Notes under the pieces: generated by a model
Told to the model about the DNA's origin: nothing
Database searches by the model: none
The model's input: the letters and a program-made list of their open reading frames with translations, nothing else
Part shown: in pieces, positions 6,081 through 61,116 of the stretch
Layout: each line of letters opens with the position of its first letter
Position numbering within the stretch: position 1 is the stretch's first letter
Origin: Cliona cf. orientalis
Lineage: Eukaryota; Porifera; Demospongiae; Clionaida; Clionaidae
NCBI GenBank assembly: GCA_963930775.1
Contig: OZ005699.1
Coordinates: 6,593,501-6,657,500, forward strand
Direction: 5' to 3'
Length of the DNA stretch: 64,000 nucleotides
Translations under genes and position numbers: made by a program

Positions 6081-6163
6081 CATTTGCATGCAGGGCCCTG
6101 GTAGACTAGGTCCATCAATACAATATCTTGCCAAAATTTAATAGCTTCTTCAAGTCTGCAGAT

Positions 6164-8644
6164 ATGGCATTTCTTCTATTTTGTGCACTCCTTGCCACAT
6201 CCGGATCCATCTATGCATCTCAAGCCGCAAGCAATATCGATTTTTCTCGATCAGTGACTGCTACAAAGTACCAAGGGTATCTTGGACAAGGATTCAACGC
6301 TAACTACTTCAAACGTGAAGGAGGTCCGCTCCCTAAGTACAACCCTGAAAATATCCAGATTCTCAAAGATTTGGGATTTCGAAATCTTCGAATTCGCTGC
6401 GATGCTTCACTATATGATCAAGATGGTTACCATAGTGAACGCTTCCGTAATGAATTTCTCGCAAATCTGACGAAAGTTGTAGATGATTGCATTAATAACG
6501 GTATTGCTCCCATCGTTACGTTTCGCCACCGCGAAATTGAAAACCGTGCTAACGAAGAGGATCGCCAAAATTACCTGGAATGGTGGAGAATAGTGGCTGA
6601 GGAACTGAAGGACAAGAGCTACCTTCTCTCCTTCAATCTCTTCACTGAGATGGGAGTGGAAATATGCCGCAATAAAAGTCCATTCTGCTGGGAAAACTGG
6701 AGAAATGTGAGTGCAATAATAATAATAATATCAACTCTAGTAGAATGATAGAGCTCTGAAGAGCACATATTCCGTGCACTGCACATCATGGCATCATGAC
6801 ATAATAATGATAATATTATTAATACACTCAAGATTTGAAGAATGAAGTGCTGCATGCCATCCGAACCTAACTGGATCATGCATTTGCTACTATATTGCTT
6901 GAAATAGACTCTATGTACAAGTTAAAGCACCGTAGCGAGTACTCTGTAGTGTGGGGACAGTATCGATATCCCAAAATTTGAAACTTCTAAGCCTGGGTCA
7001 CATTCGCTTTTTGAAAAAAAAAGGCAAGCAAAATGGCTAAGTGTAGCTAGCTCTAGTTTTGATCTTTTGGTGATCGCTCTACATGCAGTAAGAACGAAGA
7101 AGACATGGAGCTTATAAACGACTGCATAGCGAAAAGAGTTTTAAATTAATTGGGAGAAGATGACGAGCAGTGAGATAAGCAATAGCAGTGAGCTAGCTAG
7201 CCGTGGGTATGAATGTTCGTCGGTTTTTCAGGGTTTTACATAATATTTAGTGTAAATTAGAATTTTATACCTAGAGTAACTCATGGGACGATTTTACACC
7301 AGCAAAACCTAGAGTAACTCATGGGAAGATTTTACACCAATACAATTACCTAGAGTAACTCATGGGCACCAGTATATACAACCTAGAGTAACTCATGGGA
7401 CGATTTTATACCAGCAAATTGGTGTAAAATCCTGAGTATTAATTGAATGCCAAGTATATTATTAAGGGAGGATTTTACACCACATCAAAAATAAGGGGCT
7501 TACTCATGTACGATTCTCCTATATCACGCAATCGACAGATCGATTACTGACCACTCGCCCACGCTAATGGGGCCTTACCCTTCAACTGCCTTTGTATCAT
7601 GTGACTTTGCTCCCTGTTTTGAGCGCACGTTTGGAGCTTGAAAAACGGGGAGACTGGCTGTATGTTATAGTGCGTAGAAGTCGCATTCTGGCCATTAATT
7701 TTTAGTGCAGAGGACGACAGACAAGCCGATTGCATTACCCCTCGCGCATGCACGCAGGGTAATTACGTATGCAATAGTTAGTACCAGGATGATGTAAAGC
7801 GAGAGAGGGGAGGAGCGTGACACGACCATGCACTTGATTAAAATTTGCGTATACGCTTATGTACACAGCACGTGAATAAAAACTCAAATTTAAATCAAGT
7901 GCATGGTCGTGTCACGCTCCTCCCCTCTCTCGCTTTACCTCATTATGCGCTCCGGCCTGCTAGTATACAGCTATATTCAATCATTGCTGATGTGATATAA
8001 CTTATAATATCATTATCTGTACCGTACAGTGCTGCGCCGAGGCTCTTAGACTTGACACAGATAAATACCACAGGTGGACATCTGAAGTTATTTCAATCAT
8101 TCGTGGGACCGGTGGTAATAATGCACAACGAATCTTAATCCTAGCATCACCAAGGAAGACAACTTATGGGCTAGAGCCACAGTTCAGCGATACAATAAAA
8201 TCTTACATGGACTCCTACATGATCATGGATTGGCATAATTGGGCTGCTGGACCAAACGGATTAAACTCAAGCCGTAACTACTGGAGTGGAAAAGGCACCG
8301 ACGAACAAAAAGGGCGAATAATAAAGGCAATACTAGATGCAGACAGTTTCACTGCTCGCACCGGTATACCTACTTGCCAAGGAGAATGGATGCCAAGGGA
8401 CTATAGACATGGGCTCTTGAATCAAATGGAAGTCATGAGCTTTGCTAAATACTTTGTTGAGTTATTTAAAGATGCACAAATTCCATGGAGTCTGAATTCA
8501 TTTGACCAATACTATGACACCGAGACGTCCACTAGAAGGACTGAAATGCAGTCCCATTCCTACATACTAGGTGGAACTCGGATCGATTTCATGTTTCCGC
8601 TCAACATGTCTCTTATTCTGGAAACCATACTGGATGCTATGTAA
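6164..8644 (+). CDS. Secreted GH5 cellulase-like glycoside hydrolase, copy 1
   Basis: Two exons, 6164-6706 and 8030-8644, join in phase 0 (donor GTGAGT, acceptor ACAG) to give 385 aa. The ATG at 6164 begins a clear signal peptide (about residues 1-22, core FLLFCALLATSG). The TTG-initiated extension upstream is not needed. The body reads as a family 5 TIM-barrel hydrolase. A conserved RIRC strand is followed by SFNLFTEMG, with Glu162 in the acid/base position, then MIMDWHNWAAGP, then PTCQGEW, with Glu300 as nucleophile. Both glutamates are present, so the enzyme should be active on a beta-linked polysaccharide, though substrate cannot be read from sequence. Related sequences I recall are bacterial cellulase-type GH5 proteins, so an old lateral transfer is possible, but the intron makes it a resident animal gene. 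A nearly identical gene lies inverted at 46,407-48,598. Confidence 0.85.
7270..7500. repeat. Short tandem repeat in GH5 copy 1 intron
   Basis: Four copies of cctagagtaactcatggg are separated by variants of gattttacacca. A rearranged partial unit continues to about 7500. Confidence 0.8.
7795..7937. mobile_element. Foldback (MITE-like) element in GH5 copy 1 intron
   Basis: Two perfect 45-bp inverted arms (7795-7839 and 7893-7937) begin taaagcgagagaggggagg and are separated by 53 bp. It is not seen in the intron of copy 2, so it was inserted after, or lost since, the duplication. No unambiguous target duplication was found. Confidence 0.8.
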
Positions 8645-26450: not shown

Positions 26451-28740
26451 ATGTGTTTGGCATGTAAGGAGCTACATAAATGTTTGCGTCAAGCATCCGA
26501 GCGCATTTCTCAGGCACCAACCAGCTCAAAAATGAAGCACATCCAACCATCTTCACATTTCCCCCTCAAATATTTATCTCCTAACAGTCTAAAGGAACGG
26601 AGGATGAATACTCAAGCAGAACGCTCTCACGATAAACGAGCATTAAGAAAGTACGAACCACAAGATGTTGTACTTGACGATTCACAGCATGACGAGATGT
26701 GCCAGGTTGTATCAGCTTTGGAAAGCCATGGACATGGCGAGTTAGGGGATGTTTTTGCAGAGGCTGACGCTCATGGAGTTGGCACAGATATTCAAAAGAC
26801 ATGGAAAAATGACAAGCACAATCTTAAAAAGCAGTTTCAGTCTGATCAACTCACCTTTAAGTTAGATAATGATTGACTATGTCATACACATGTATATTAG
26901 TTTAATCAAGAGTATAATAATACAGAAACCGGGAACCGAGGTAATGGATGGAGCCCTATCACAATACGTATAGATAGGCTAGATATAAATTTATATACAC
27001 ATTCCTGCAATCATTCAATTAGCTCTAGCAGTGTACATACGTAGTCCTGCTGCCTACCAAACATTAAAGAATTTTGGAATCCTTAACCTTCCTTCCAAAT
27101 CAACCCTACAGAGATACACAGGTAATATTGGTTGATATAATTATTATGGACAATACATATAGAAAAAAATCTGTCTATAGTTGTCACCATGGGGCGAAAA
27201 TCAGTGGTTATTAGCTATAGATGTGTCTAACTTAACAAGGTGTATAATGTTTATTGGGGTTGCCACTGAATGGCGGTAATGAGGAGGTGCATGGCTGCAT
27301 GCCTTACACGGTGACCACTATAGCTACACAGGTTTGACCGCACAATGACACATAGGGCACAAAATTAATTTTGAAATTTTTCCAGAACCCTCCATTCTCT
27401 CTCTCTCGCTCTCTCTCTCGAATGTGCATCTATATAATTATTCAATGGGGATGTGTAGATATTGATAATTATGTGCATGTATATAACAGGTGCATTCCTA
27501 TCTGGGCCTGGGGCAATGGAAGAGGCTATTTATAAGCAATCAAAGCTATATGCTGCATTCAAGGAAGAGCCTTGAAGGATTGAAGGTGCCACGAGGAGAC
27601 AGTGTGCTTGTTTTTGATGAAGTGAAAGTTGTATCAAGGCTAATGTGGAATTCCAGGAATCAGCAGATAATTGGTCTAGCAATGAGTCCAGAGGATATGA
27701 GCTCTCTACATGATATCTACATGACATAATATTATGATGAGGACACCAAGACCGAGCAGACTACCTATGTTCTGCAATTTTTATGGAGAGATCTCACATC
27801 CAAATTTGATATCGTTGGGCCATAGTTCACTTCAAGTGGAAGTGTTAAGAGCAAATTTACCATTGCTTGTGTTTTTGAAACAATTAAATTGTTTCAGCTG
27901 TATGGGTTTGAAACCTCGGTTATAGTGTGCGATGGAGCGTCTATAAACCTCACTACTAGCTATCAAGTGCACTTCAGGCGGTCATTCAGGTGCCTATGGT
28001 AGCCACTCCATCCAGAGTGGTTATCCAGTGCCAGCACCATGCTTTGAAAATCTATTCAATCCTCCAAACCTCATCTACTGGATTATATGCCCTACTCATC
28101 AAGTAAACAAAATTAATTAGCAGCCTATTCTTTACAATAATAATACATTTGCACATGTATTATTATAGCTCAAAAATATGATAAATGTCTTTTTTTCTTC
28201 TCGGAGTGGAGGCACTAAGAATTTTGAGTTTAACAGAACAGTATTTGGACGGAGAGCAATACATGCAGGCAAGTCTACAGTATAGCACATTAGCATACTT
28301 ATGGCAGCTGAACTATATGTACTAACAGGACATGTATAAGAGAGAGAATGTGAAAAGATGGCAAAAGGATTGGCAAGAATTGTACCAAGACTTAGAGAGA
28401 TTCATGTCATTCATGATTCCTAAATATAACACCAGCCAAAATTTAATAATGCAGGTACAATTATTAGGCCATTAATTACTATTAACCACATGATATTATT
28501 AGTGAGAGAATGTACTGACCGAGTTACACTCTTACACAACAAGTATAACTGCTTATAATGTTCAAAGTGCTAAGTATTCTCTACAGTTTTTGGAAGCTTG
28601 TAATCTAATTTTTGAAAGAGGATTACTTCACCATAGCGGGGTCATATCAGAGCAACATGAAATACTGACCAACATAGACAAAGGATATGCATTTTTTTCT
28701 GTAGATGGCTAGAAGATAATTATCATCAAACGAGGTACAT
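26451..28740 (+). pseudogene. Decayed P-element/THAP9-like transposase
   Basis: Fragments occur in transposase order. An N-terminal ORF at 26,451-26,876 contains QHDEMCQVVSALE and ADAHGVGTDIQKTW. About 27,050 has AYQTLKNFGILNLPS. At 27,570-27,727 is LKVPRGDSVLVFDEVKV with NQQIIGLAMS, the DE-x-K catalytic-domain start of P-element-like proteins. About 27,740-27,950 encodes EQTTYVLQFLWRDLTSKFD and VIVCDGASINL, interrupted by an in-frame TAG. About 28,040 has FNPPNLIYWIICPTHQ. About 28,330-28,450 and 28,595-28,720 hold FLEACNLIFERGLL and the tail. No THAP zinc finger was seen. Frameshifts and stops make it inactive. Confidence 0.75.
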
Positions 28741-28759
28741 GTATGCACATATACCATAA

Positions 28760-31514
28760 AGTTATGTGATAGTATATCAGATTGTGAATTGTCCATCCCT
28801 GGTTATTGTATCACCCGGTTTGACAGAAACAGGCATGGTGGTGGGCTAGCTTTTTATATCAAGTCACATTTATTTACTGAAGTTTTGTTAAGTTGTCCTA
28901 ATGATCTTGAGTTTGCTTTAGTTTCAGTTGTTAATCCAGGTTTTTCTTATAAAGTGCATGTAGGCCTTTTCTTTCGTCCCCCCAGTGCACCTACAGACAC
29001 TCTAGACTTATTATTTTCTTCATTACTAGATGCAAATGTACATAGTTTTACTAATTTTGTGTTAATGGGGGACTTTAATACTAATTTTTATAACCCATCC
29101 CATCCTTTATTCTCTAATTTGTGTAATATTTTAGATTATTTTTCACTCTCACAAGTAGTATCAGAACCCACCCATACCAGCCCTCAAGGAAACACATCTC
29201 TTATTGATTTAGCCTTGATTTCTGACGCATCCAAGTTAATATCTTGTTCAGTTGTTCCACCTCTAGGTACATCAGATCATAATGGAGTGCAGCTGTCATT
29301 GAAATGGAGATCCACCAATCGTATGAAAGCAGCAAAAAGGAAGATCTGGCGGTATGGCTTGGCTGACTTTGAAACAGCAAATTCTCTTCTAGAAGCCACT
29401 GACTTTGCTGCTCTCATAGATTGCGATATTGACCAAGCCTGGAGCAACTGGAAATATAATTTTTTATCTGTGATGGAGCAGTGTATACCACACAAAATGA
29501 TACAGAAGAAGCGCAACTTACCTTGGCTTAATGCAGAATTAACGAAATCTATGCGTGCTAGGAACCTGGCCTACAAGTGTGCTAAGCGAAGCCGGAAGCA
29601 GAACCATTGGCAAATGTATCGGATGAAACGCAATGAAGTGGCAAACCAGATGAAACGTGCAAAAAGAAACTACTTCAATACTTTGAACTCAGCTGACCAA
29701 AAGGCATTCTGGAAAGCGGCCAAATTCGTTAAGAAAGAGACCAGGATCCCTTTCCTCAGGAATTGCAATGGGGACATTATCTCAGATGATGAAGAGAAGG
29801 CAGCCATCCTAAATAATTTCTTCTCACAATGTTTTAATACTAGCATCCCTGTGCTCTCTGATGATGACATGTCCACCTTTGTTGATAATGACGCTGATGA
29901 ACATGCTGAATTGTTGTGTACAGAGGAAGAAGTTCTTGATATGCTGCGAAATCTTGATACATCTAAAGCAGCAGGGCCAGATGGGATATCAGCAACTATG
30001 CTGAAAGCTACAGCTGAATCAATTGCCAAGGGAATCACAGCACTGTTCAACAAATCCATTGAATCCGGTAAAGTACCAAAGGAGTGGAAAATATCTGCTG
30101 TTGTTCCAGTTCCAAAAGGTGACAATTCAAGTCAACCCAGTAACTACAGGCCTATATCGCTCTTATCTATACTTAGTAAGCTTCTGGAAAGACATATGCA
30201 CAAAATGATTTACAAACACTTGGAATCCACTGTCCCGCTAGCCTTACAGCAGTGGGGTTTCCGCCCCAAACGATCTACTGTATCTGCTCTACTTGATGTT
30301 ACCAATCATTGGTTTCAATCTTTGGATAAGGGCAAAGAAATATGTGCGGTTTTTTTCGACCTGCGCAAAGCTTTCGACTCTGTTCCACACCGAATACTAC
30401 TACAGAAAATACGATCAACTGGTATTAATCAACAGGTCTCAAATTGGTTGTTCTCATATTTACACGATAGAAAACAGTACGTTGTACTTGATGGAAAAGA
30501 GTCTGCACCGGTTCCTGTATTGTCTGGAGTTCCACAGGGATCTGTCCTCGGTCCCCTTTTGTTTTTATTATACATTAACGATGCAACAGATGAGCAGTTA
30601 AATTGCGGAAGTCTCACTACCCTTTATGCTGATGATATGCTTCTATACAGGGAGATCAGCTGCCCAGATGATTATGCTAAGATACAAAGTGATATAAATA
30701 CCCTTTCTACCTGGGTCGACAAGAATAATCTAACATTGAATGGAAGCAAATGCAAGTTCATGATAATATCTCGACTTAAGTGTAACTCGGTGGTAGCTCC
30801 TATTCTAACTCTCCACAACAAGGCTATTGAAAAAGTATCCTCGTATAAGTATCTAGGTGTCATCATTACAAATGACCTATTGTGGTCTGCCCATATCGAA
30901 CGGATAAGGAGTAAAGCGAATAAGATCATTGGCCTTATTTACTGTCAGTTTTATAGCTGGTCTTCACAACAAACTCTACTTAGGCTATACACTTCATTAG
31001 TAAGGCCGCATTTAGAATATGCAACGCAGGTTTGGAACCCGTATTTGATGAAAGATATCCAAAAATTAGAGAACGTACAGAAGTTCGCACTTAAGGTATG
31101 CTGCAAGCGATGGGACTTAACCTATGCTGAAGCCCTGGAGCAAACAGCACTCCCAGATCTCAAGGCACGCAGTACTCACTTAAATCTATGTTATTTTTAT
31201 AAGCTAATTAATGTTTTTTTTTTAGTTTCCCAATTCCCCGCTAACTACTCGCCAGTTAAACTACCCTACTCGTAGTGGTAGAACTAATTTGTACTATCAA
31301 CCTTATGCACATTCTAATTCATTTCTGCACTCTTTTTTCCCGCAAACTATTTCATTATGGAATTCCTTACCTTTTTCTATTGCTTCTGCTCCTACTTTTA
31401 ATTGTTACAAACGTCTATTATTGTCTTATGTTTAGTCTCTATGCTCTGTCAACTTGTCTCTTGTAATTTTTGTTTTGTTTTTGTTTATTTGGTTACATGT
31501 TTATATGATAGTGT
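28760..31514 (+). mobile_element. 5'-truncated non-LTR retrotransposon (LINE)
   Basis: The main ORF runs 28,789-31,275, and its reading frame is open a little further upstream (DSISDCELSIPGYCITRFDR). The N-terminal part of the apurinic-type endonuclease is missing; the remainder has VLMGDFNTNF and SDHNGV. The reverse transcriptase follows with AAGPDGISATMLK, NYRPISLL, QWGFRPKRS, FFDLRKAFDSVPH, SGVPQGSVLGPLLF and the catalytic YADD at about 30,624. Near 31,212-31,222 a T9 run shifts the frame. In the other frame the protein continues through RSGRTNLYYQPYAH and LWNSLPFSIASAPTF to a stop at 31,433-31,435. The LWNSLP tail is typical of CR1/Jockey-like LINEs; the exact clade is not assigned. Confidence 0.9.
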
Positions 31515-46406: not shown

Positions 46407-47138
46407 CTACATAGCATCCAGTATGGTGTCCAGAACAAGAGACATGTTGAGCGGAAACATGAAATTGACCTTTTTTCCACCTCGTAAGTAGGTGCTCTTC
46501 TGAATTTTAGTAATTCTAGTGGACGTCTCGGTGTCATAGTATTGGTCAAATGAATTCAGACTCCATGGAATTTGTGCACCTTTAAACAACTCAACAAAGT
46601 ATTTAGCAAAGCTCATGACTTCCATTTCATCCAAGAACCCTCCTCTATTGTCCCTTGGCGTCCATTCTCCTTGGTAGGTAGGTATACCGGTGCGATGAGT
46701 GTAATTTTTTGCCTGTTGCATTGCCTCTTCTATTAGCCCTTTTTGTTCGGCGGTGCCTTCTCCACTCCAGTACTTACGGTGCCCTTCTATTTTGTTTGGT
46801 CCAGCGGCCCAATTATGCCAATCCATCATCATGTAGGAGTCCAAGTAAGATGTATCGGTGAACTTTTGCTGTAGCCCAGCAGCTGTCTTCTTTGGCGATG
46901 CTAGGATCAAGATTCGTTCTGCATTATTACCACCGGTCCCACGAATGAGTGAAATAACTTCAGATGTCCACATGTGGTATTTCTTTGTGTTAAGTCTAAG
47001 AGACTCGGCGCAGCACTGCATGGTGCACGTGCAAACAATATAAGTTACACATATCATAAAATATTATATCACATCAGCAATGATTGAGTATAGCTTTATA
47101 TACTAGCAGGACAAGGGCGTAGGCATGACTTACAAAGT

Positions 47139-47172
<34 letters not shown>

Positions 47173-48598
47173 GGTTGTGATAACTGCTCACGAAAATTTT
47201 TATCCTATTGTATCCAGAACCTTAAAAATGCATTAAAATCAGCTATTTTCAGCAATTATATCTCAAAACTTTGCCAAACAAGCGCTTCCTTTGACAACAG
47301 AGAGAGTTGAAAGGCATTAAGCAACAGGGTTACTACCTTGCTGAAAAACCGACGAGCCAAATCAATATGGTACGTGGAACGGCGGAATGGAATAGTGGAA
47401 TGGTGGAACGGTGTATCAGCTGGAATGGGCAACTATGACTAACGACCCTGTTTCACACGAACTTATTCGCATGTGCGCACTATGCAGCTCAGCTTGAACA
47501 GAGTCAGAAAGCGAAAGAGAATAGGTCAGGGATGCAGACTTGGAGATGGACAGAGAGGCAAAAGCCACAGAACACATGCTCATAGTCTAGCTATAGATCT
47601 AGATCTACCGCTAGCTACTTCCAGCACAGATAGTATAATATCTGCCATAGTATGGTGCCTATTTGATTTGTTGCTCAGCCTATTGCCATGCCACAATAGC
47701 TATTATGGCCTTGAATGCTACCCTGGTACTTGCTTTTTTTTCAAAAATCCACGAATGTGACCCAAGCTCAGATTTTTCAAATTTCGAGATACTGTCCCCA
47801 CACTACAGAGTATGTGCTACGGTGCTTTAACGAGTACAATGTCATAATTATTACAAGCAATATAGCAACAAATGCAGTTAGGTTCTGATGGCAGCACTTC
47901 ATTCTTCAAATCTTGAGTGTAATCTTATTATGTCATGCATTATGGTACTTAATATAAAGGGTAATAGATGTGCAGCGCACGGGGTATGTGCTGTTCAGAG
48001 CTCTATCATTCTACTAGAGTTGATATATTATTATTATTATTGCACTCACATCCATCCAGTGCATGTCGTCCGTGCAGGAGGCCTCATTGCGGCATATTTC
48101 CACTCCCATCTCAGTGAAGAGATTGAAGGAGAGAAGGTAGCTCTTGTCCTTCAGTTCCTCAGCCACTATTCTCCACCATTCCAGGTAATTTTGGAGATCC
48201 TCTTCGTTAGCACGGTTTTCGATTTCACGGTGTCGAAACGTAACGATGGGAGCAATACCGTTATCAATGCAATCATCTACGACTCTCTTCAGATTTGCGA
48301 GAAATTCATTACGGAAGGGTTCACTATGGTAACCAACATCATCATATCGTGAAGCTACGCAGCGAATTCGAAGATTTCGAAATCCCAAATGTTTGAGAAT
48401 CTGGATATTTTCGGGGTTGTACTTAGCGAGCGGATCTCCTTTTTTACTTTTGAAGTAGTTAGCGTTGAATCCTTGTCCAAGATATCCTTGGTACTCTACA
48501 GCAGTCACTGGTCGAGAAAAATCGATATCGCTTGCGGCTTGAGATGCATAGATGGATCCAGATGCGGCAAAAAGTGCACAAAATAGAAGAAATGCCAT
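46407..48598 (-). CDS. Secreted GH5 cellulase-like glycoside hydrolase, copy 2
   Basis: Exons 48598-48050 and 47015-46407 join in phase 0 (donor GTGAGT, acceptor GCAG) and give 385 aa, the same length as copy 1 despite compensating two-codon indels at the exon junction. The signal peptide (FLLFCALFAASGSIYA) and both catalytic motifs are kept: SFNLFTEMG (acid/base Glu) and PTYQGEW (nucleophile Glu). Differences from copy 1 are scattered and mostly conservative, with no stop or frameshift, so both copies appear to be under constraint. The intron is shorter than in copy 1, lacks its foldback, and holds a 33-G run. The promoter palindromes and TATA box are conserved, so the two genes are probably regulated alike. 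Confidence 0.87.
47139..47171. repeat. 33-nt poly-G tract in GH5 copy 2 intron
   Basis: It is an uninterrupted G run in the intron. The left-arm counterpart lacks it. Confidence 0.9.
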
Positions 48599-48671
48599 AT
48601 CTGCAGACTTGAAGAAGCTCTTTGGCAAGATATTGTACTGATGAACCTAGTCTACTAGGGCCCTGCAGATG

Positions 48672-50276: not shown

Positions 50277-50726
50277 CTACCTAGGTGTGTCCTTCAGAGT
50301 ATTGAGTTTTACTATAATCCTGTGCCACTCGGACAGTGGGATAGTTCCATGCTTGCCAGTTTCACCTTCACTGATTTCATGATCACCATCATGTGCAATA
50401 CGTTGTTCGTTGGACACTGCTTCCTCATCTTCCACCTCGGCTTGGTACTGTGAAATGATATCGGACAGCTTTACTTTAGAAGCTGACAATTTCTTCCCTT
50501 CATCTCCCGGACCCACGTTCAACATCTTCTCGAACAAATCAGCTCGAACGCTTTCGACATGACTCGTTAGCATCTGCCAACGTGATCTGTGAGAATCTGA
50601 TGCTTCTGGTGCTGATGCTCGTTCACCCTCATAGCTTCCTGGATCCTCTTCATATTCTTCATCCTCTTCGGAGGTTTCTTCCTCAAATCCATCTCCCTCT
50701 ATTCTTCTTAATTCTATATTATCCAT
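50277..50726 (-). CDS. Small acidic protein, 149 aa, unknown
   Basis: The ORF starts MDNIELRRIEGDGF and has an N-terminal Glu/Asp run, a Ser/Ala-rich linker, a helical middle (LFEKMLNVG, VKLSDIISQYQAEVE) and a C-terminal HGTIPLSEWHRIIVKLN segment. There is no signal peptide or membrane segment. A possible splice acceptor (CATCAG) lies just upstream, so it could be the last exon of a longer transcript. It does not keep frame with the ABCG gene that ends at 51,041. No family recognised. Confidence 0.5.
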   Translation of the reverse strand: MDNIELRRIEGDGFEEETSEEDEEYEEDPGSYEGERASAPEASDSHRSRWQMLTSHVESVRADLFEKMLNVGPGDEGKKLSASKVKLSDIISQYQAEVEDEEAVSNEQRIAHDGDHEISEGETGKHGTIPLSEWHRIIVKLNTLKDTPR

Positions 50727-51040
50727 TGACCCCTCTCTGCTGCTTGCTTCCTCTGATGTGGGCGAGAATTAGGTATTAGTCACTAAAATACACATGCAGT
50801 CATGTATTATACGTAATACAATGTCATAATATTATTATACAGTATAATAATATAGTATACATGTATAGTATTAGTATACGTACGTGTGTACACGTATATG
50901 TACGTACGTACGTACGTCTTTCATTCAGCTGCCATGCCATCAATATTCATGCATCTATTCCATAGTTATGTATGAAATCAGAACAATGCAGTATAATTAT
51001 TTTAATAGAGTTCTTCTGTATACAGCCTACTACATAATTT

Positions 51041-54000
51041 TTATACCCATGTCATATTCAGGTTGCCCGGCTGGTCCTTTCTGATGATGATTCTTCTTTC
51101 TTGTACATGTACATGCATGTTTAACACCAGTTAATCTACAAATAAATGTTTTTTATCATAATAATTATTATTACACCTAAAGTTATTGTGGAGAATTACT
51201 AGTTATATATACTTACTTTGCTTTGAGTTTGGAGATGAATGTGGCACAATAGGTGGTATGCTTTAGCCAGTTAGTAAAGATGGCTAGAAGCAAGTAGAAG
51301 ACTGTGAAAGCCAGTAAAACCTTCATATGTATGTGTATTGTATAAGGTTCACATAATATAATAATATTGTAGCTGAGAGTCACACAAGGTCAGCGAGAAA
51401 TTTGCACTCACTATGAGGTGAATATAGGGATTGATGCTGTCAAAAAAGAACTGGTTTAGAATGTAAGATCCAGAAGAGATGTAGCACTCAAGCTGGTTGC
51501 CATTGCAGCCAGTTTGGAATTCAGATAGCACAAAGAAAGCTATGGAAGAGAGACCAAAATAATTAGGATTGATGTAGACCATCCAGCGGTACCTGTATAG
51601 TAATTAAAGCAACAGAACGTGAGCTAACTCTGAGTGTCATCTATATGGGAAGTTTTCTTGTAAGACTCACCCCCAATGCAGTACACCAATAGGGATGAAG
51701 AAGCCACTGGTGAATCCAGCAATGGCTGAAATAATAGGAGAGAGACGAAATGCTACCCCTGGGAAGGCACAGATGAGGGCAGTGAGAAGAGCTATCCAAG
51801 TCTGATTCAGGGCAATGTTGACAAGAAGGACTTGAAGGTAAACAAACAAATCATAAGATTCATGGTTCACCAACTATGCATAGGGATAATGTGTGTGCAT
51901 ACATGTGTGTGTGTGTGTGCGTGTGCATGTGTGTGTATATGTGACCGTCCACGAGAAAACCATGCATAATGCGCTGGATATCAATCTGAGATACAGGCCA
52001 AAATAGTTACCTATGGTGATAACTATCGATTTTCACTTTTTGGTATAGATCGATAGAGGAATCATTCCTCTACACAAAAATCTGCTTCGTAGCTTCTAGA
52101 ACGCTATACGTACCGAGTTATGGCTCGAAGAAGTCGGCCGTGTAGCTAACATTGACCGTCCATGATACGGAGCCGTTGCCATAGTTGCAGGTAGGCAAGC
52201 ACGGCAGCTGCACAGAAAAACTCTCCAGCCACTTCTTTCTCCGATTCTGTGTATTAATGATCTTTAGAAACGTTTGTCTTCTTGTTCTTTCCCATCGAAA
52301 CGTTGGCTGCTGCTCTCCTTCGAGCGTTTGGCAGCCAGCTAGCTCATTGACTTTGTGGGCGGGGCCACATATTTACCATAAACGGCGAGTATACGGACTT
52401 CCGCGTGCAACGTACGTAGCCAAGTTCATTGCAATTTTTTGCAATACTCGAGTACGGGCGATCCGGGTATATTTTTGCTCATATCTCCATGACTACACGG
52501 GCTAGAGACTTCAAATTTGCTGGAGCAATAGTTCAAAGGTTGTAGTTGGTAATGGTGGCCTTAACTCAAAAAATTTTTTCAGCGCATTATGCATGGTTTT
52601 CTCGTGGACGGTCACATATATGTGTGCGCACGTGAGTGTATGAATGTGTGGATATGTGAGTGTGCATGTATGGGACCAGGGTATGATGCAATGTAATTAT
52701 TATGAGAAAAAGAGAGAGCTTACCAAAAAGTAGATCACCGTTACTGCTATGACAACAGGAAAAAGAGCAAAAGACACAAATCGTATGAAGCCCTGAATCA
52801 CAATCTCAAATCCAATGTATCCAATACCATCATCTTTTTCTAAGCGATACAGGTCTAATGCTCGTTGGTAGTATAGATACATTGCTGGGAACATGAATAT
52901 ATAGGGCACTTGCTGTTGAGAACACACACATCCCAGAGACAACTAGAAAAGCTTGATTTACTTGTATGTATGTTGTGCCTGACAGAAAAGAGAGTAGGGT
53001 AAAATTACAGCACATAAGTTTCCATCCATGATATTCAGGTCATGACAGCTAACTTTCAGAAGCATAAACAGTAGATTCAGAACTCCCGTACAATTTTTGT
53101 TTCACTTTGTACAGGAAGCAGTATAGGATGTATTAGCTAACTTCTAGCTGCAGGTAATAACGTGCATGCCCAGTGTTTCTACACAGGCTCCCCTAATATG
53201 GAAATGTAAATAAACTAACCAAGAGTAAATCCAAAGATGAGGAACATAATTGGCAGGAAGAGCAGAACCATAATCGTAGCTCTCTTGTCTGCTCTAGCCT
53301 CCAAAACAGCCATCCGAGTAAATGCGGAACTTCGGTTGCCACTGTTGTTAGCTATATTATTCGTACCTCCATCTTCTGTACGTCCATCGGGCAGGTCTGT
53401 TATTACTTGGCTACTGTTTCTCCTTATTCGGAGTAGTATACACTGATAAACCAACTTGCATTTCTGAGGTACTCACCTTGCAAATTTGATGGCTTTCTTA
53501 ACAGACTTTGCCTTGTTTGAATTCTGATAACACTCTACAAATAGGTGACGTATTCTTGGATTGCCTAGCATGTCCATGATCAAATCTGTGAGTGATTGGT
53601 GAAGTTAAGTATTATGATATTCATGTGTGCTATAACTTTTAATCACCTGCTGGATTATGGTCATCTACTAGAGAAAATAGAACTTTCTTATGAAGTAGAT
53701 ATCTATCAGCTAGAGCATTCACAAACACTTCATGATAGGATACCTGCCAGTACGTACATGTACAGTAAATCATAACAAATGTGTAGTACTTATAGTCTAT
53801 TATTATTTTTTTATTACTTTTCCATTAGAGAGTAGGATGAGCTTGCGGAACATGTGGAAGATCTCCAGACGAGGCTGGTGGATGGTGAGGATCACTGTGC
53901 GGTTGGATGCAGCCAGCTTGTCCAGCTGTTTCAACAGCTTTAATGATGCAGTAGCATCAAGACCTATATTATTATGTAGTATTATTATATACCTATCTTT

Positions 54001-57000
54001 CACATAATTATGTAGCTATTCCTTATTGTAGAATTATTAATTCACCAGAGGTTGGCTCATCAAGGAAGATGACGCTTGGAAGGTTTAGTAACTGGAGGGC
54101 AATAACCAAACGTTTCTTCTGACCACCACTTATGGCTAGCCCGGTAGCTCCACCCACTTTTTTCGTAGCAATCTTTAGCAGACCAGTCTGTGTGTGTGTA
54201 AATTAAGTATTATTACAACAAGATACAGTATCTACTATACAGGCACATACCATTTGCATAACCTGTTCCACTCTTTTAAATTTCTTATCAAGATTGAAGC
54301 TTTCAGGTAGTTTCAACTGAGCGGCCAGAGTGAGGTTTTCTCTCACTGTCAGCTCCTCATAGTAGGGTGTGGCCAACTGGAGGACATAGCCAGTGTTAGA
54401 ATTGTACCATTCAAGATTATTATCATCAAGTAATTTTCCATTGATATAGATCTTTCCCTGCAGGTAAGATTGTCAGAGTGTGGTTAACGCGCTATATTAC
54501 TGAACCTTTCCCAACAACGTTGTATGCACTGGACCAAAACTAAGATTTCCTTATGTCGTGCATGCTTTACCAAAACATGAGCTTTCCTGCACCTGTTTGT
54601 CAGAGGATAGGACAGAATTTTTGTAAAATAAATAAACATTATGTAGAAATTAAAATTTTGCCCTATCCTACATATTTCCTATATTATATGCATGAAATTC
54701 ATATTTTCATTTAGTGATGTTCATCTAAACTTAACCTTAAATCCAGACTTTCTACGTCCAGCCAAAAAGTCAAGTGTTGTCTTGCCACCACCTGATGGTC
54801 CCATTATGCCAACCAAGTCTCCAGGTTTGAAGTGCACTGAAACTTTATCGAGAATAACATGTTCACCTTGTCTTTCCTGTCCCAGATCCTGTATCTATAA
54901 TAGCATAATATTATATGCATGCAATGCCATGTAGACATCAAGTACTCAGCTCAGCCTACTAGAGAATTTAATATCACCGCCCCGTTGTTCCTGTGTTCTC
55001 AGAGGTTTTTGTTGGGGGAGGGGGGGTGGGGTTGAGGCGAATTCCATTATGTATTAGCTACCACATAAATACACTAACTTCAATTTCTGCAAATTTGAAG
55101 TATGATAGCTATAGTACAGCATAATTAAGCTGAGATCTCAAAATCACACTCTAGTCACTGGTGCATGGTGGCATGGTCAGTACTATAACATCATACATCA
55201 ATGGTGGTGCATGGTTGTTTCTATATGTACATTATGGATGCAGAGTATGCAAACCTAGTATACCTAGGATTTGGCAGCCACGCATTATGTCAGGCCCCAT
55301 TAACTTCATAAAACTCCCTGTATACCTGTCCGAAGGCTTCTCCCATTAGGTAAATGAATTGAACTGATGCCCGGCATGCATGCACCTGTATACTATATAG
55401 CTATATTATACTGTACACCACTCCCTATAGAGTAGAGCAGATCCCCAATCAATTTTCAAGCAAACTTATGTTACAGTAACAGTAGTGGTGACCTGTGGCA
55501 ATAGAAGTTGTTCTTCTGAAGTTAAATGTAGCGTGACAAAATCTGTCTCTTCTTCTGTCTCATCCTTGAAAGCTTTCCCTTCAGTGGGCTCAACTGAGTA
55601 GCTGAGGTCAAGGCATGATACAGATATCGTCTGTGGACATGCATGTGTATTATGTGTGTGTGCATGCTTGTAAGTGTGGTTGTGCACATCACATCTGTTA
55701 CAGTAGTCTATAGCTATCATAGGTATAAACGTGATTAGTGCCTCACACAAACTAATATCTTGAACTGAACTAAACTAGCTATTATTAATATCGACACACC
55801 GACAAACTGACTCAGTATAACAGCGCTGAAATACTAGCTGTATGCTATAGTTTTATGTTGTATAGTTAATATCGTAAAGACTGTGTGATAAATAAATATA
55901 ACTGATTGATCTTTGTTGACTTGTCTCATGAGCTCGTGACATTTCCTGGTGTATCCTGGCCTGCTAACTACATGTTTCTCAGCGATCTCGTTCCTTCTGT
56001 CTATGACTGTGAAGTCATGGAGGTCAGCTCTTTTTGATGTTCAGCAAATCTACTATGCAGAGCTAGCAGGCTGAAAACAAGACCATATCATGGACGTGGC
56101 TTGCGCATGCACAGTATAGCTACTGGTATATATGTAGTTTCTTAGTGATTATGTATATGTAATATCTATGGAGTAGATTCAACTAATGTATGACCATTAA
56201 TTTTATTCACCTTCTTTGTAGAAAAATCAGTGCTGCTCTCATCACATGACTGAGATGATTCAAGAAGACTTTTCTGTTTTTTCTCTAACCAATGGCGCCA
56301 GAAGAAAAACAGAACCTTAATGATCACACACAAAACCGTAAAGCTAGTGATCAGGGCAGCAATGAAGATCTTGATCCCAGTGTGCCAGTTGTTGGATGTG
56401 AGCTCAGTTAATTGGAGCTTATCAGGACACTGAGAATTGCAGAGGATACCTTGTTGAGCGTGTATGTAGGTATCATGTACAAATTGCAGTATTAAAACTC
56501 AATTAGACACAGATATTAGGAAACGCATGTACTGTTACAGTAGTATCCCGGATAAGTGTCTACTCCTGGGAAAGCGCCCAGGAGCTGCTTTGCAGGGGTG
56601 CATGAATGACATCTATGGTATTTATTATTTTGAATTTCTACTCAAAAAACAGAACAGTGGTTAACATGATTAGCTGGAGATAGCTAAAACTAGCATGTAA
56701 CCTATGGAGGAAGTACAAGTAAGTATGAGTTAAAAATTAAAATGCTGACTGAGGCCCGATTTAAACGAATTGAGAGAGAGAGATGACAGAAGTGATGAAG
56801 GAAGAGAGTTCCAGAGAGCAATGGTTTTTGGGAAGAAAGAATGATAAATCTGGTTGATTCTAGCCTGGATGTTGACTAACTGCAGGGATTGGTGTGCCCG
56901 TTTACATAAACAATGTCAGGAAAGTCACATAAATTGTTTACAATTTTGAATAGTTTTTTTTAAGTATGCAAGCGTCCATGCATGTGGGCAAAATTATGAG

Positions 57001-60000
57001 CTATGAAAAAGCGCTCACTGTATGATGCATGCTTACCCAGGAGACTAGCATAATATTGACTATACACATGCAAGGAATGGCACAATGTACACATTACCCT
57101 ATGCAGTGCATCATACCTTGGCAGAGATCAGTGTATCCAACAGAACTAGAACTATTGAGACCCATCCATGAGGTGAGGGCATCAAAGATGGTAGCTGGAT
57201 TCCTTGAGTGATCAGCAGCAAGAGAGAGTGTGGTCCAGCGGCCAGAAGAGATGGAGTGTCTGTGTACACATCATATTATTCAGGTATAGCTAGATCATTA
57301 TTATCATTTATCCTACCTGAAGGAAGTTGTGTCCCTTGTGAATTCAAAAGAGTCAGAACCAAAGACACTTTGACCATCAGCTCCCCATAGTGTGGATGTT
57401 GCCAGGTAGATATGTTGGAAACACTGGGTCACATAGTAGCTCAAAAATGATACCTGAATTTATATAGTGCACATGATGCAAACAAGTTCTCTCAATAATA
57501 AATTAAATAATATTATGGGTATAGATTGCCATACTGATGTACATGCACAACTCATTAATATAATATACACATACATTGCACCAGGCTCAGGCAGGCATCA
57601 TGCACATAGCACTCTTATACATACACACACACTTACATACCTGGGTGGTGATTGTGTCCAGTGTGCTGTTCATTGTTCCTCCGTACTCTCCGATGACCCT
57701 CAAAAAGTCCAGCACAATACCACCATTACCATCACCAGTGTTGGATGTCTCTTGCACTGACTCTAAATTGGCTACACTTTCCAGTCCCGGAGTCATAAGG
57801 TAAATATCATAGATACTAAATAGAGCAAATGTTGGGGTGTCCTCAGGGTAATACTGCAACTCTCCATCACTATTTCGTTGTGTCATGATACAGTGAGCTG
57901 AAATGCAACAAGGATATCCAAGACGCTCTGTATCACTGCAAGCAGTGTTTGACTTCAAAACATCAAGCAGACGTTCATTGTTGCTTGTGGAAGAACTAGA
58001 TTTTGTTACTCCATTAAAGATGGCCTCAATGCCATCCTGAAAATCAATAAACCAGGCTAAATCAAATAAAACTTTCAGTTCAGTGCTAGAGTTTAGTATT
58101 TCATGGGTCCACTTGGCATGGTTGACGGCCCCTAGACCTCCTGCACTAGAGCCAGCTAGAATAACCCTGTCCGCGTTCATCATGTCATAATCAGCTAAGA
58201 GCTGTCGGATGATGCTCTGAAAGATAATCTTACCACGAAAGGTAAACTGGAGATTCTCACTGTTTGGGTTGAAATTAAAACAACCATTCTGCATGGTTGG
58301 CTGATGTTGTGTAGTTGAAACAGTCACACTGGGAATCACTCCTCCCATGGCCAACAGCTTCTGTGTTAGTGATATCTCCTCTCCCAGCCAAACATCACTA
58401 CTGCAGTAAGGTATGACTACATGGTTATAGCTGTGAAACAGACGGTTCTTTATTGGATCCATGTCCAAATTATCTCTTCCTTCAATGGAGGAATTCAGTC
58501 CATTCGGAAAGAACTCGGGTACACTTTCAAAACACTTCATTGATGTCATGAGAGGTGATATGAGCTGGATCTCTGTCACTCAGAACAGTTTCATTCCAAG
58601 CTCTGGATGGATCAAATGATCCATATGGAACCACCTCAGGAATTCCGTCATCGTTGACTTCCTCACGGATCTATACAAATCGAGGATGACATGCTCATCA
58701 GTGGCGTCGCCAGGGGGGTGCATGTGGGTTCATTTGCACCCAATCCATGCGCCAGTGCACCCATCCTATGCATAATGTAGTTTTAATACCTACATGTATA
58801 GCCTATCACAGTATGCATATTTCACTACACTGTCACAACTAGTAATGTAACGTGTTATGTATTATAACAAGACTATCTACATGGAAAACTTAATTGATAC
58901 CTAATAGTGCTACATTCATACTCAATTCCGCTATAATAGATATAGCTAGCTTTATGAATTTGCCTGTTTAGTGATTTTCAATGACATGATACCTAATAGT
59001 GCTACATTCATACTCAATTCCGCTATAGCTAGCTTTATGCATTTGCCTGTTTATAGTGATTTTCAATAACTTGCACCCAGTTAAACAGCTACCTAGAGAC
59101 GCCATTGATGCTCATGTTTTGTTATTGAAGTGGGTGAGGCCACCATGAAACTACCAAGCGATCCTAGCGAGAGAGGGTCTAGCTCGCTAGAAGCTGACAG
59201 ACTCATGTATGGCTGGCACTGCAGTCCTTGAAGCCATACCGAATCGTGCTAGTGGCTAGTGTGAACACTGATGATTAACTAAGTGGTGATTACACGCACC
59301 ATATCCAGTAATAGTGGGCTTGCCTGGGAATGAATAAGGGACATTGGGTATGTGTAATGGCCTGGCACCATATTAGCACAGCTATAAGTGCACAAACATG
59401 GCATAAGTTTGACATAATTATTATGAGCTATATTTGAATGAACTCTAACTTGCAGTACCTATAAACTGGCCAATAGCTATTGCCACATAGTAGCTGCATG
59501 TGTGCATGGGGATTTTACTATAGGGCCCAATTACAGGGGCTGATCCAGGGGGGGTGGATAGGGTGGCTAGCCACCCCCCTTCACCAGTTCTTTTATGTAA
59601 CGTAGTATAGGAAGATGTCCATCATTGTTAACCAGCCACCCCCTTTGCACCAGTATGGTTTACTATGGGTAGCCACCCCGTCAGCCACCTTCCATGCAAA
59701 TTTTCTGGATCAGCACCTGAATTATTATAGCATAATAAATGGTATGAGTGCCTATTAGCTAGCTATGAACTTGTCATTAGTCACACTGTCAGGTAGCACT
59801 CACCGTTGGTCTAGTACGCATTAAGATGGTGGAGATGCCCAATTTCAAGCTAGGGCTTCAACTTGAGCCCCAGGGGTATGGCCTCACATGACTGTCTATA
59901 ACATTCATTACGTGTTAAAATTAATGAGGAAAACATGCTCAGAATTCATGCACATTGAAAACAAGGAAAGAAGTCTTCTCCACATGAATCATGTCAAAGT

Positions 60001-60720
60001 CTACCATAGAGGTATATACGTTATGAGAATTCATAAATGCTACGTTAGATTGGATCATACGTTGTATTCGATTAACTATGGCATAATATTATTATTATAA
60101 TGACATTGTAGTACTTCTGGAAAGAGGAAAAGATAACTATGCTCTGGTAAACTATTCACTCTATACATGTGAGAGGCCACATCACGGTCCTCAGCATACT
60201 TTGCCACTTGTAGACTATGCAAACCCATGCATGCTAGAAATATTTTGGTAACCTTATTGTTGACCCGTTAACATGCCAATGACCCTCCGGTTCCCTCGAT
60301 AACGTGAGGAGTAATTCCTGCTCCTATGGTGATGGATACCAATGAATGAATGGAAAAATCTGTCATCAATGCAATGTGTACAACCATAGTAGATAAAAAA
60401 AAAACTTGTGTCACCAATAAGAATCCTACCTTTCTGACAAAGAAACGTCTGTTACAGCTCTCTGTGCTGTAGCAGAGTCCTCCGCTCTCCAGAAACACCA
60501 CCCAATTCTTAGAGGATGGATTTTGTCGTATGAAGAATCCTGCTTGAGTGAAGTCATTACAGAGGGCTGTGGAATTCGAAGCAGATGCCCACACCATGTT
60601 ACTACTGACAGATGTTGTAGTGTTTTGAGCTTGGGTGACTGGCAGCCATGGAGGACATACAATGACCACCGCGACAATCAACAGCAACCATGTTGCTGCT
60701 TGTACTCTCTGAGCTTTCAT
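51041..60720 (-). CDS. Pectinacetylesterase/Notum-like ectodomain fused to ABCG half-transporter
   Basis: Nineteen exons: 60720-60430, 58670-57641, 57453-57317, 57259-57117, 56449-56211, 55630-55493, 54894-54736, 54457-54251, 54187-54046, 53963-53818, 53743-53647, 53585-53477, 53422-53220, 52978-52962, 52912-52724, 51873-51671, 51592-51412, 51320-51217, 51080-51041. All phases fit except one extra base in exon 2, giving about 1257 aa. Residues 1-31 are a signal peptide. About 35-590 form a serine hydrolase ectodomain ([24 protein letters not shown], nucleophile in GSSAGG about Ser272, YDIY about Asp385, CFQH about His454). One membrane helix follows ([19 protein letters not shown]). The cytosolic ATPase has Walker [10 protein letters not shown], signature SGGQKKR, Walker [11 protein letters not shown] and H-loop TIHQPR. 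The ABC2-type membrane domain is C-terminal. Half-transporters of this type dimerise. Introns carry at least three transposons. Confidence 0.85.
51936..52620. mobile_element. 685-bp TIR element in ABCG intron, copy A
   Basis: Perfect 41-bp terminal inverted repeats begin tatatgtgaccgtccacgag. The interior contains gaggaatcattcctc and agctaacattgaccgtcc. A second, inverted and diverged copy lies at about 62,998-63,675. It sits in the intron between exons 15 and 16. Ends in TATA hint at a TA-type target. Confidence 0.9.
58699..59107. mobile_element. hAT-like MITE of 409 bp in first ABCG intron
   Basis: Ends cagtggcgtcgccagg and cctagagacgccattg are imperfect inverted repeats. Flanks atgctcat (58,691-58,698 and 59,108-59,115) are a perfect 8-bp target duplication, the hAT signature. 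The interior has a direct duplication of about 90 bp (acctaatagtgctacattc unit). Confidence 0.92.
59534..59719. mobile_element. 186-bp MITE with 5-bp target duplication, copy B
   Basis: Same element as 42,324-42,512, same orientation, flanked by aatta on both sides (59,529-59,533 and 59,720-59,724). It also lies in the first intron of the esterase-ABCG gene. Confidence 0.92.
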
Positions 60721-61004: not shown

Positions 61005-61116
61005 TAGTCTCGTGAACCAGACCACTCCCTCTGCAGCGCTGGATGATTGCATCTCCGCGTGCTGGTGATGCAATACATCCAGCGCTGTGGAGGGAGTGGT
61101 CTGGTTCACGAGACTA
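61005..61116. mobile_element. 112-bp foldback element
   Basis: Arms of about 50 bp (begin tagtctcgtgaaccagacc) are near-perfect inverse complements around a short centre. The word ggtgttac occurs close to the left end and directly after the right end, a possible 8-bp target duplication. Confidence 0.8.

Follow-up and report, generated by a model that had tools for sequence, protein, structure and literature searches.

A Notum-like esterase fused to an ABCG half-transporter: a gene family of the sponge Cliona cf. orientalis and its relatives

Introduction

Does a single sponge gene encode both an ester hydrolase at the outer face of the membrane and an ATP-binding cassette (ABC) transporter of the G subfamily (ABCG), and do the two halves act on the same substrate? 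This question is raised by a 64,000-nucleotide (nt) stretch of the Cliona cf. orientalis genome (C11:6593501-6657500, in an assembly of 217 Mb and 149 contigs), hereafter called the window. An original prediction, made from the window's own letters, placed in it a signal peptide, a pectinacetylesterase (PAE)/Notum-like hydrolase, a membrane helix and a complete ABCG half-transporter in one chain. The esterase-ABCG fusion is virtually certain to be real and to constitute a gene family. Our overall reading, to which we assign a probability of about 0.45, is that its members are single-chain Notum-type carboxylesterase-ABCG proteins whose outward hydrolase would act on the transported cargo.

ABCG half-transporters pair up as dimers, and their cargo is hydrophobic and in most cases exported. 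To our knowledge, they have no signal peptide, ectodomain or preceding membrane helix, and eukaryotic ABC transporters seldom carry an enzyme on their outer side. NOTUM is a soluble secreted enzyme that acts on lipid-modified Wnt and serves as a brake on Wnt signalling.

The fusion and its gene family

The strongest single fact for the fusion is the paralogue at C14:1.05 Mb, in which one stop-free frame of 707 codons extends from esterase sequence (ALCNDF, GSSAGG) across the helix and the linker as far as GPSGSGKTTLLDVLLGRR. Because this single frame crosses the junction, the fusion needs no splice inference. The hydrolase family PF03283 has 34 matches in the genome, grouped into 14 loci, eight of which are fused with an ABCG half: the window gene, its close paralogue L019, and the copies at C4:6.36, C4:9.13, C4:9.60, C4:9.88, C13:2.24 and C14:1.05 Mb. 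Another four are genes of the plain PAE type, one of them on C18 and three arranged in tandem at C14:705-710 kb; the approximately 4 and 6.6 kb examined downstream of them contain no ABC part. The remaining two, C4:9.80 (L011) and C4:9.86 (L015), consist of esterase exons 1-3 only and were left out of the fused count, the 2.5 kb before L015 lying outside the DNA examined. These exon 1-3 copies (C4:9802 kb and C4:9865 kb) are open, and the fused gene at C4:9881 kb lies downstream of both; they may be partial duplicates or alternative 5' exons.

Models of the six further fused copies were each built with four query proteins, and 22 of the 24 runs were free of frameshifts; the two with a frameshift (C4_913 and C14_105, query P0003) are not the models used. 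When the read-through protein of the window gene served as query, two frameshifts were placed in L019, marking the window's own out-of-frame stretch, and one in the C4:6.36 copy, which shows none with four other queries. The C4_988 and C4_960 models contain one stop each, in the tail past the last helix and in a poorly conserved linker, tentatively taken to be exon-choice errors. Of the 11 matches to PF01061 in a search of the genome, a single one lies in a fused gene, so this search is too insensitive to show absence.

The window gene lies on the minus strand (60720-50277) in 19 exons with GT/AG borders (Table 1), and its closest annotated relatives are sponge proteins. The encoded protein has a hydrophobic, signal-peptide-like start, followed by a hydrolase of family PF03283 and one membrane helix; past a linker come an ABC ATPase and then an ABC2-type membrane domain, and the chain closes with an acidic tail. 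The start and the membrane helices were called by hydropathy alone, which gives the ABC membrane domain several hydrophobic segments but not a reliable helix count. PF03283 matches two pieces of the gene (1.5e-24, 87.2 bits, and 3.1e-08, 33.5 bits; cut-off 26.6), ABC_tran matches at 2e-23, and ABC2_membrane (PF01061) matches one piece at 4.2e-06, exactly on its 26.9-bit cut-off. Pfam and hydropathy together thus bear out the predicted order of parts. The gene does not end at 51041 as first proposed: exon 18 ends at 51047, and exon 19 (50752-50277) adds a tail. Splice phases had been predicted to fit with one base aside; they do fit at the exon borders, but the misfit is larger, as exons 2 and 14 both carry longer non-triplet insertions or deletions relative to L019.

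The same domain order, when sought in other sponges, was found in Ephydatia and Oscarella. Protein searches scored about 8000 candidates each. In the first (27 matches among 7997 scored), both parts were present in six proteins. Four are assigned to Ephydatia, P0002 through its name and P0001, P0003 and P0006 through Em gene names; the other two are P0005 of Oscarella lobularis and P0004, a complete fused open reading frame (ORF) of 1778 amino acids with a transcript-assembly-style name. P0002, P0003 and P0006 are so similar that one locus may underlie all three, and P0006 has no precomputed ABC_tran call. A profile search (30 among 7995) added P0028, a 660-amino-acid ORF on a 2592-base contig that is unbroken from the esterase into the nucleotide-binding domain (NBD). 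In a search with the ABC half, of which the best 120 of 4775 matches were listed and whose length limits leave out the longest proteins, the matches listed include a fused protein of the ctenophore Bolinopsis microptera (P0046; PF03283 at 1.3e-36) and the environmental fused fragments P0043, P0044, P0061, P0078 and P0111. The esterase of P0044 and P0111 was recognised by a purpose-built esterase profile, in P0111 by the C-terminal motif only. The Oscarella, Bolinopsis and Ephydatia proteins are labelled uncharacterised or hypothetical in the database.

The two halves share correlated descent. Trees of the esterase and ABC parts of 15 fused proteins have 8 of 12 splits in common, some with low support; across 2000 label permutations, the mean was 0.22 shared splits and the maximum 4.

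The alternative that two adjacent genes were wrongly joined in the gene model draws on the introns that part the esterase and ATPase exons in the window (e.g., 56211 to 55630), where inferred splicing alone could not rule out two genes. However, the frame of the C14 copy is uninterrupted, the ORFs P0028, P0043 and P0061 and the complete P0004 are fused, and the two trees are congruent. This alternative is accordingly left with a negligible probability; two separate genes are ruled out by the C14 single frame and by the P0004 and P0028 ORFs. The one-exon fusion at C14:1.05 Mb and these two ORFs also give good support to one polypeptide with the predicted domain order, and the homologues are fused rather than always encoded as two genes.

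The hydrolase domain

All eight matches of the esterase profile in the PDB at E up to 0.001 are NOTUM chains (best 4.7e-37); the alignment includes the region of the Ser and the C-terminal Cys motif but leaves out that of the Asp and His. Like NOTUM (PDB 4UYU family), the sponge domain has PYCSSD, GSSAGG and a C-terminal DxCxxxxCNxxCP motif; unlike NOTUM, it forms the N-terminus of a transporter, fused in one frame to a helix and an ABC part. Like pectinacetylesterases (PF03283, CE13), it scores above the Pfam cut-off, and its triad (S271, D384 and H455 in L019 numbering) aligns with that of one of this sponge's plain PAE genes; the window copy has the triad too. Plant PAEs have been modelled on human Notum with the same triad, as described in an excerpt of PMC5465549. 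The esterase of the fused family carries the PYCSSD motif, whereas the plain PAE-type genes carry YCDG in place of YCSSD. Judged by motif and PDB profile rather than by a tree, the Notum-like type turned up in this genome at no loci but those of the fused family and its partial copies, which bears on the history of Notum.

Twenty-four members were aligned to a profile built from five of them. Among the rows with letters at the respective site, all 23 have Asp, all 22 have His and 20 of 22 have the nucleophile Ser, and the full triad is present in six of the seven intact paralogues of this genome. The prediction of Ser, Asp and His in family motifs is upheld, as all three fall at family positions in the alignment. 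Conservation of this kind makes it likely that most members are active hydrolases. The fused paralogue at C13:2.24 Mb (L017/L018) has Gly at the nucleophile position and a degenerate ABC signature, DGGVR; it is perhaps an inactive dimer partner.

The ABC half

Like ABCG1, ABCG2, ABCG5/8 and ABCG25, the fused proteins have one NBD ahead of one membrane domain, with the motifs and NBD fold of that group. Walker A, signature, Walker B and H-loop are present, and are complete in six of seven intact sponge paralogues. In sequence, the NBD matches fungal Pdr5/Cdr1 first, with ABCG1, ABCG2, ABCG5/8 and plant ABCG25 then among the best, and the best matches of its predicted fold are solved ABCGs. The predicted structure of P0029 has a mean predicted local distance difference test score of 41.9, too low to be of use; in a second structure model, the fold matches listed all concern the NBD, and no Notum row is listed. 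It is somewhat more probable than not, by analogy with ABCG proteins, that the ABC half exports hydrophobic cargo.

The ABC tree comprises 59 sequences and is midpoint-rooted. Its reference ABCGs were drawn from the matches listed in the search with the ABC half; human ABCG1/2/5/8 and Adp1 are absent from it. Sponge, ctenophore, cnidarian and some environmental proteins form one clade in it with a support of 98, separate from the sampled ABCGs of fungi and plants. The PAE-headed protist-like proteins P0078 and P0111 join this animal clade with a support of 67, and the algal P0056/P0057 come next with 100. A neighbouring clade of 11 proteins is supported at 100, and the node uniting it with the PAE-headed clade at 53. 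In a FastTree analysis of 120 sequences, most proteins of both clades fall in one clade of 39 (support 0.876). The fusion is probably old.

In an excerpt of PMC6647914, yeast Adp1-type ABCGs are described as TMH1-NBD-TMH6 proteins (TMH, transmembrane helix) with an N-terminal domain of epidermal growth factor (EGF) repeats. As far as that excerpt goes, the sponge proteins resemble Adp1 in having an extra N-terminal domain and one membrane helix before the NBD and membrane domain, but differ from it in having a Notum/PAE-type hydrolase with a triad in that position. In this domain Pfam recognised PAE, and EGF gave no match at E up to 0.001. The open-licence papers searched yielded no account of a PAE/Notum-ABCG or phospholipase A2-ABCG protein, and within them the statement that no protein with this order is described holds. 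The sponge proteins would therefore represent a new version of the Adp1-like plan, one whose ectodomain is an enzyme.

Phospholipase-A2-like heads in the neighbouring clade

Five proteins of the neighbouring ABC clade (P0062, P0065, P0074, P0081 and P0088) have a Cys-rich, secreted-looking head and one helix before a related ABCG. The PA2_HIS pattern of PROSITE, which we take to be a mark of phospholipase A2, occurs in five of the 120 listed ABC relatives, against 0.02 proteins expected from shuffles. The motif CGxYCGxGWCxG, with F for Y in one case, is common to all five heads; since it was derived from these same heads, its agreement with PA2_HIS does not count as separate evidence. Against the PDB, a head profile gave 10 matches at E up to 10, the five best of which are secreted phospholipases A2 (rice 3.9e-4, the best; bee 3.4e-3), with complement C5 next at 0.23. 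The Pfam phospholipase A2 match is below its cut-off, at 0.043, in two of the five heads.

Possible coupling of hydrolysis to transport

If the ABCG half dimerises as in ABCG half-transporters, two esterase domains would stand at the outer face. The substrate would be a hydrophobic ester (for instance a lipid, a sterol ester or an acylated metabolite) that ATP would drive across the membrane or out of it. Where it emerges, the esterase would cleave it, which would trap the product outside and keep it from slipping back. Sponges and a ctenophore have the esterase joined to the pump, and a related group has a phospholipase-like head in its place, which points to a coupling of hydrolysis to the transported cargo; the coupling gains some weight from the phospholipase-A2-like head in 5 of the 11 neighbouring-clade proteins. 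By this analogy such a coupling is a serious candidate, at slightly less than even odds.

Several observations weigh against it. The nucleophile is Gly in two of 22 members (the C13 copy and P0043), which means that the domain can persist without catalysis, and the models of the other 6 members of the 11-protein phospholipase-headed clade show no head, two of these models starting at the NBD; the coupling loses some weight through both. More distant relatives (P0108, P0141 and P0090) have Cys-rich heads with no recognised enzyme. With headless and Cys-rich-headed relatives, the head is variable, yet it is ester-hydrolase-like in two lineages. The models of the ABC relatives from a coral (P0036), Clytia (P0041), a Sycon-like source (P0047) and algae (P0056/P0057) contain no esterase; P0041 starts inside the NBD, and the others may be truncated. 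The tree is midpoint-rooted, and supports are 67 for joining the protist-like to the animal PAE-headed proteins and 53 for joining the two hydrolase-headed clades.

Because Gly replaces the nucleophile Ser in these two members, the esterase fold might instead be mainly a binding, gating or folding ectodomain, with catalysis dispensable. The C13 copy also has its degenerate ABC signature, the Cys-rich heads mentioned above could be of the same kind, and the Adp1 N-terminus consists of EGF repeats in the excerpted account (PMC6647914). This explanation is improbable, however, in that the triad is retained in the other 20 members across sponges, a ctenophore and a protist-like protein, and a head of a second, phospholipase-A2-like hydrolase type occurs in the neighbouring clade.

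The resemblance to NOTUM raises another alternative, a tethered ectoenzyme whose extracellular substrates are acylated (lipid-modified ligands, for example), while the ABCG half is an anchor and dimeriser or moves something unrelated. In its favour are the PYCSSD motif and the eight NOTUM matches, and the division of the 14 PF03283 loci into four plain YCDG-type genes and ten others, eight fused and two with 5' exons only. However, the full ATPase motifs of six of seven intact paralogues would be needless in a mere anchor, and we consider this alternative unlikely, if a little less so than a non-catalytic ectodomain.

Cleavage of the transported cargo remains our preferred reading. If it is true, an ABCG pump and an outward ester hydrolase share one cargo, and the identity of the hydrolase is a clue to the cargo of the whole ABCG group; as hydrolase heads of two kinds exist, this idea lends itself to direct testing. 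A broader and more doubtful proposal is an old eukaryotic family of hydrolase-headed ABCGs, with a Notum/PAE head in animals (sponges and a ctenophore) and some protists and a phospholipase-A2-type head in related protists, each secreted and set on a single helix ahead of the ATPase. The head would act at the exit mouth on the cargo, or on the lipid that carries it, and hydrolysis and transport would form one machine. A Notum-type esterase would then already have been part of a lipid transporter in early animals.

State of the window copy

L019, at C11:5.75 Mb, lies 0.9 Mb from the window copy and is 95.3% identical to it in nucleotides. Its frame is open across all 19 exons (1459 amino acids). 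Relative to L019, exon 2 of the window copy has lost 5 nt at ~58564, uncompensated, with a stop about 12 codons on (58529-58527), and carries a +2/+6/+4 set at ~58375, ~58353 and ~58295 that puts about 26 amino acids out of frame. Exon 14 has an uncompensated gain of 4 nt (TATA, 52903-52900). In exon 7, a 3-nt deletion removes the Leu directly after Walker A, which reads GPSGGGKT. Paralogues covering the affected stretches read as L019 does.

The ratio of nonsynonymous to synonymous divergence between the two copies is 0.40 (dS 0.11, dN 0.044, 1409 codons). Of the 21 gaps in the alignment of the two, 17 have a length divisible by three. Both values suggest that the gene was long under constraint and was lost recently. 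On these grounds the window copy is probably a recent pseudogene of an L019-like gene, and is likely to be non-functional. The same two values, indicating coding constraint through most of the gene's history, would also suit an intact gene whose frame breaks are assembly errors. However, the non-triplet differences are of 5, 2, 4 and 4 nt and not homopolymer slips, the Leu after Walker A is missing as well, and none of the six further paralogue models chosen has a frameshift, so that assembly errors are a rather poor explanation.

Two other readings of the frame breaks were rejected. A 49-nt intron inside exon 14 would restore the phase but delete a membrane stretch that aligns with the paralogues, and comparison with L019 reveals a 4-nt insertion in the window copy there. 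Slips in the homopolymers TTTT and CCC are not what the comparison with L019 shows, namely a 5-nt deletion and the 4-nt TATA insertion.

Table 1 Exons of the fused gene and an insertion, in window coordinates
Feature	Position	Strand	Content
exon 1	60430..60720	-	ATG, hydrophobic signal-peptide-like start, beginning of esterase; PF03283 match 36-92, first piece
exon 2	57641..58670	-	main esterase exon, GSSAGG nucleophile and Asp; PF03283 1.5e-24; compared with L019
exon 3	57317..57453	-	esterase, catalytic His (CFQH)
exon 4	57117..57259	-	esterase, near its end
exon 5	56211..56449	-	C-terminal Cys motif and the single membrane helix
exon 6	55493..55630	-	cytosolic linker
exon 7	54736..54894	-	Walker A; one Leu fewer after the motif than in L019
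exon 8	54251..54457	-	NBD
exon 9	54046..54187	-	NBD signature ISGGQKK, Walker B FLDEPTSG
exon 10	53818..53963	-	D-loop, H-loop (TIHQP)
exon 11	53647..53743	-	3' of NBD; 21 nt shorter than in L019
exon 12	53477..53585	-	
exon 13	53220..53413	-	ABC membrane domain, first hydrophobic segment (hydropathy)
exon 14	52724..52978	-	membrane domain; frame broken by +4 nt TATA (52903-52900)
exon 15	51671..51873	-	membrane domain; acceptor TAG/TTGGTG (slash at the splice site)
exon 16	51412..51592	-	membrane domain, Cys-bearing loop
exon 17	51217..51320	-	last hydrophobic segment (hydropathy)
exon 18	51047..51135	-	tail; donor GG/GTATAA (slash at the splice site)
exon 19	50277..50752	-	acidic tail at the C-terminus, with the stop; has a counterpart in L019 and, weakly and in part, a match in L026
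insertion in intron 14	51936..52620	.	685 nt, perfect 41-nt terminal inverted repeats, not in L019

Other features of the window

A short palindromic element at 61005-61116, about 290 nt upstream of the start codon, has 41-nt arms of 95% complementarity around a 30-nt gap. An 851-amino-acid open frame at 28720-31275 (plus strand) contains endonuclease and reverse transcriptase domains and belongs to an element of the long interspersed nuclear element type. Two closely similar cellulase-like genes (GH5, PF00150) lie in opposite orientation at 6110-8644 (plus strand) and 46407-48646 (minus strand); among their four pieces, 7991-8644 has no PF00150 match, 46407-47063 falls just under the cut-off, and the other two are above it.

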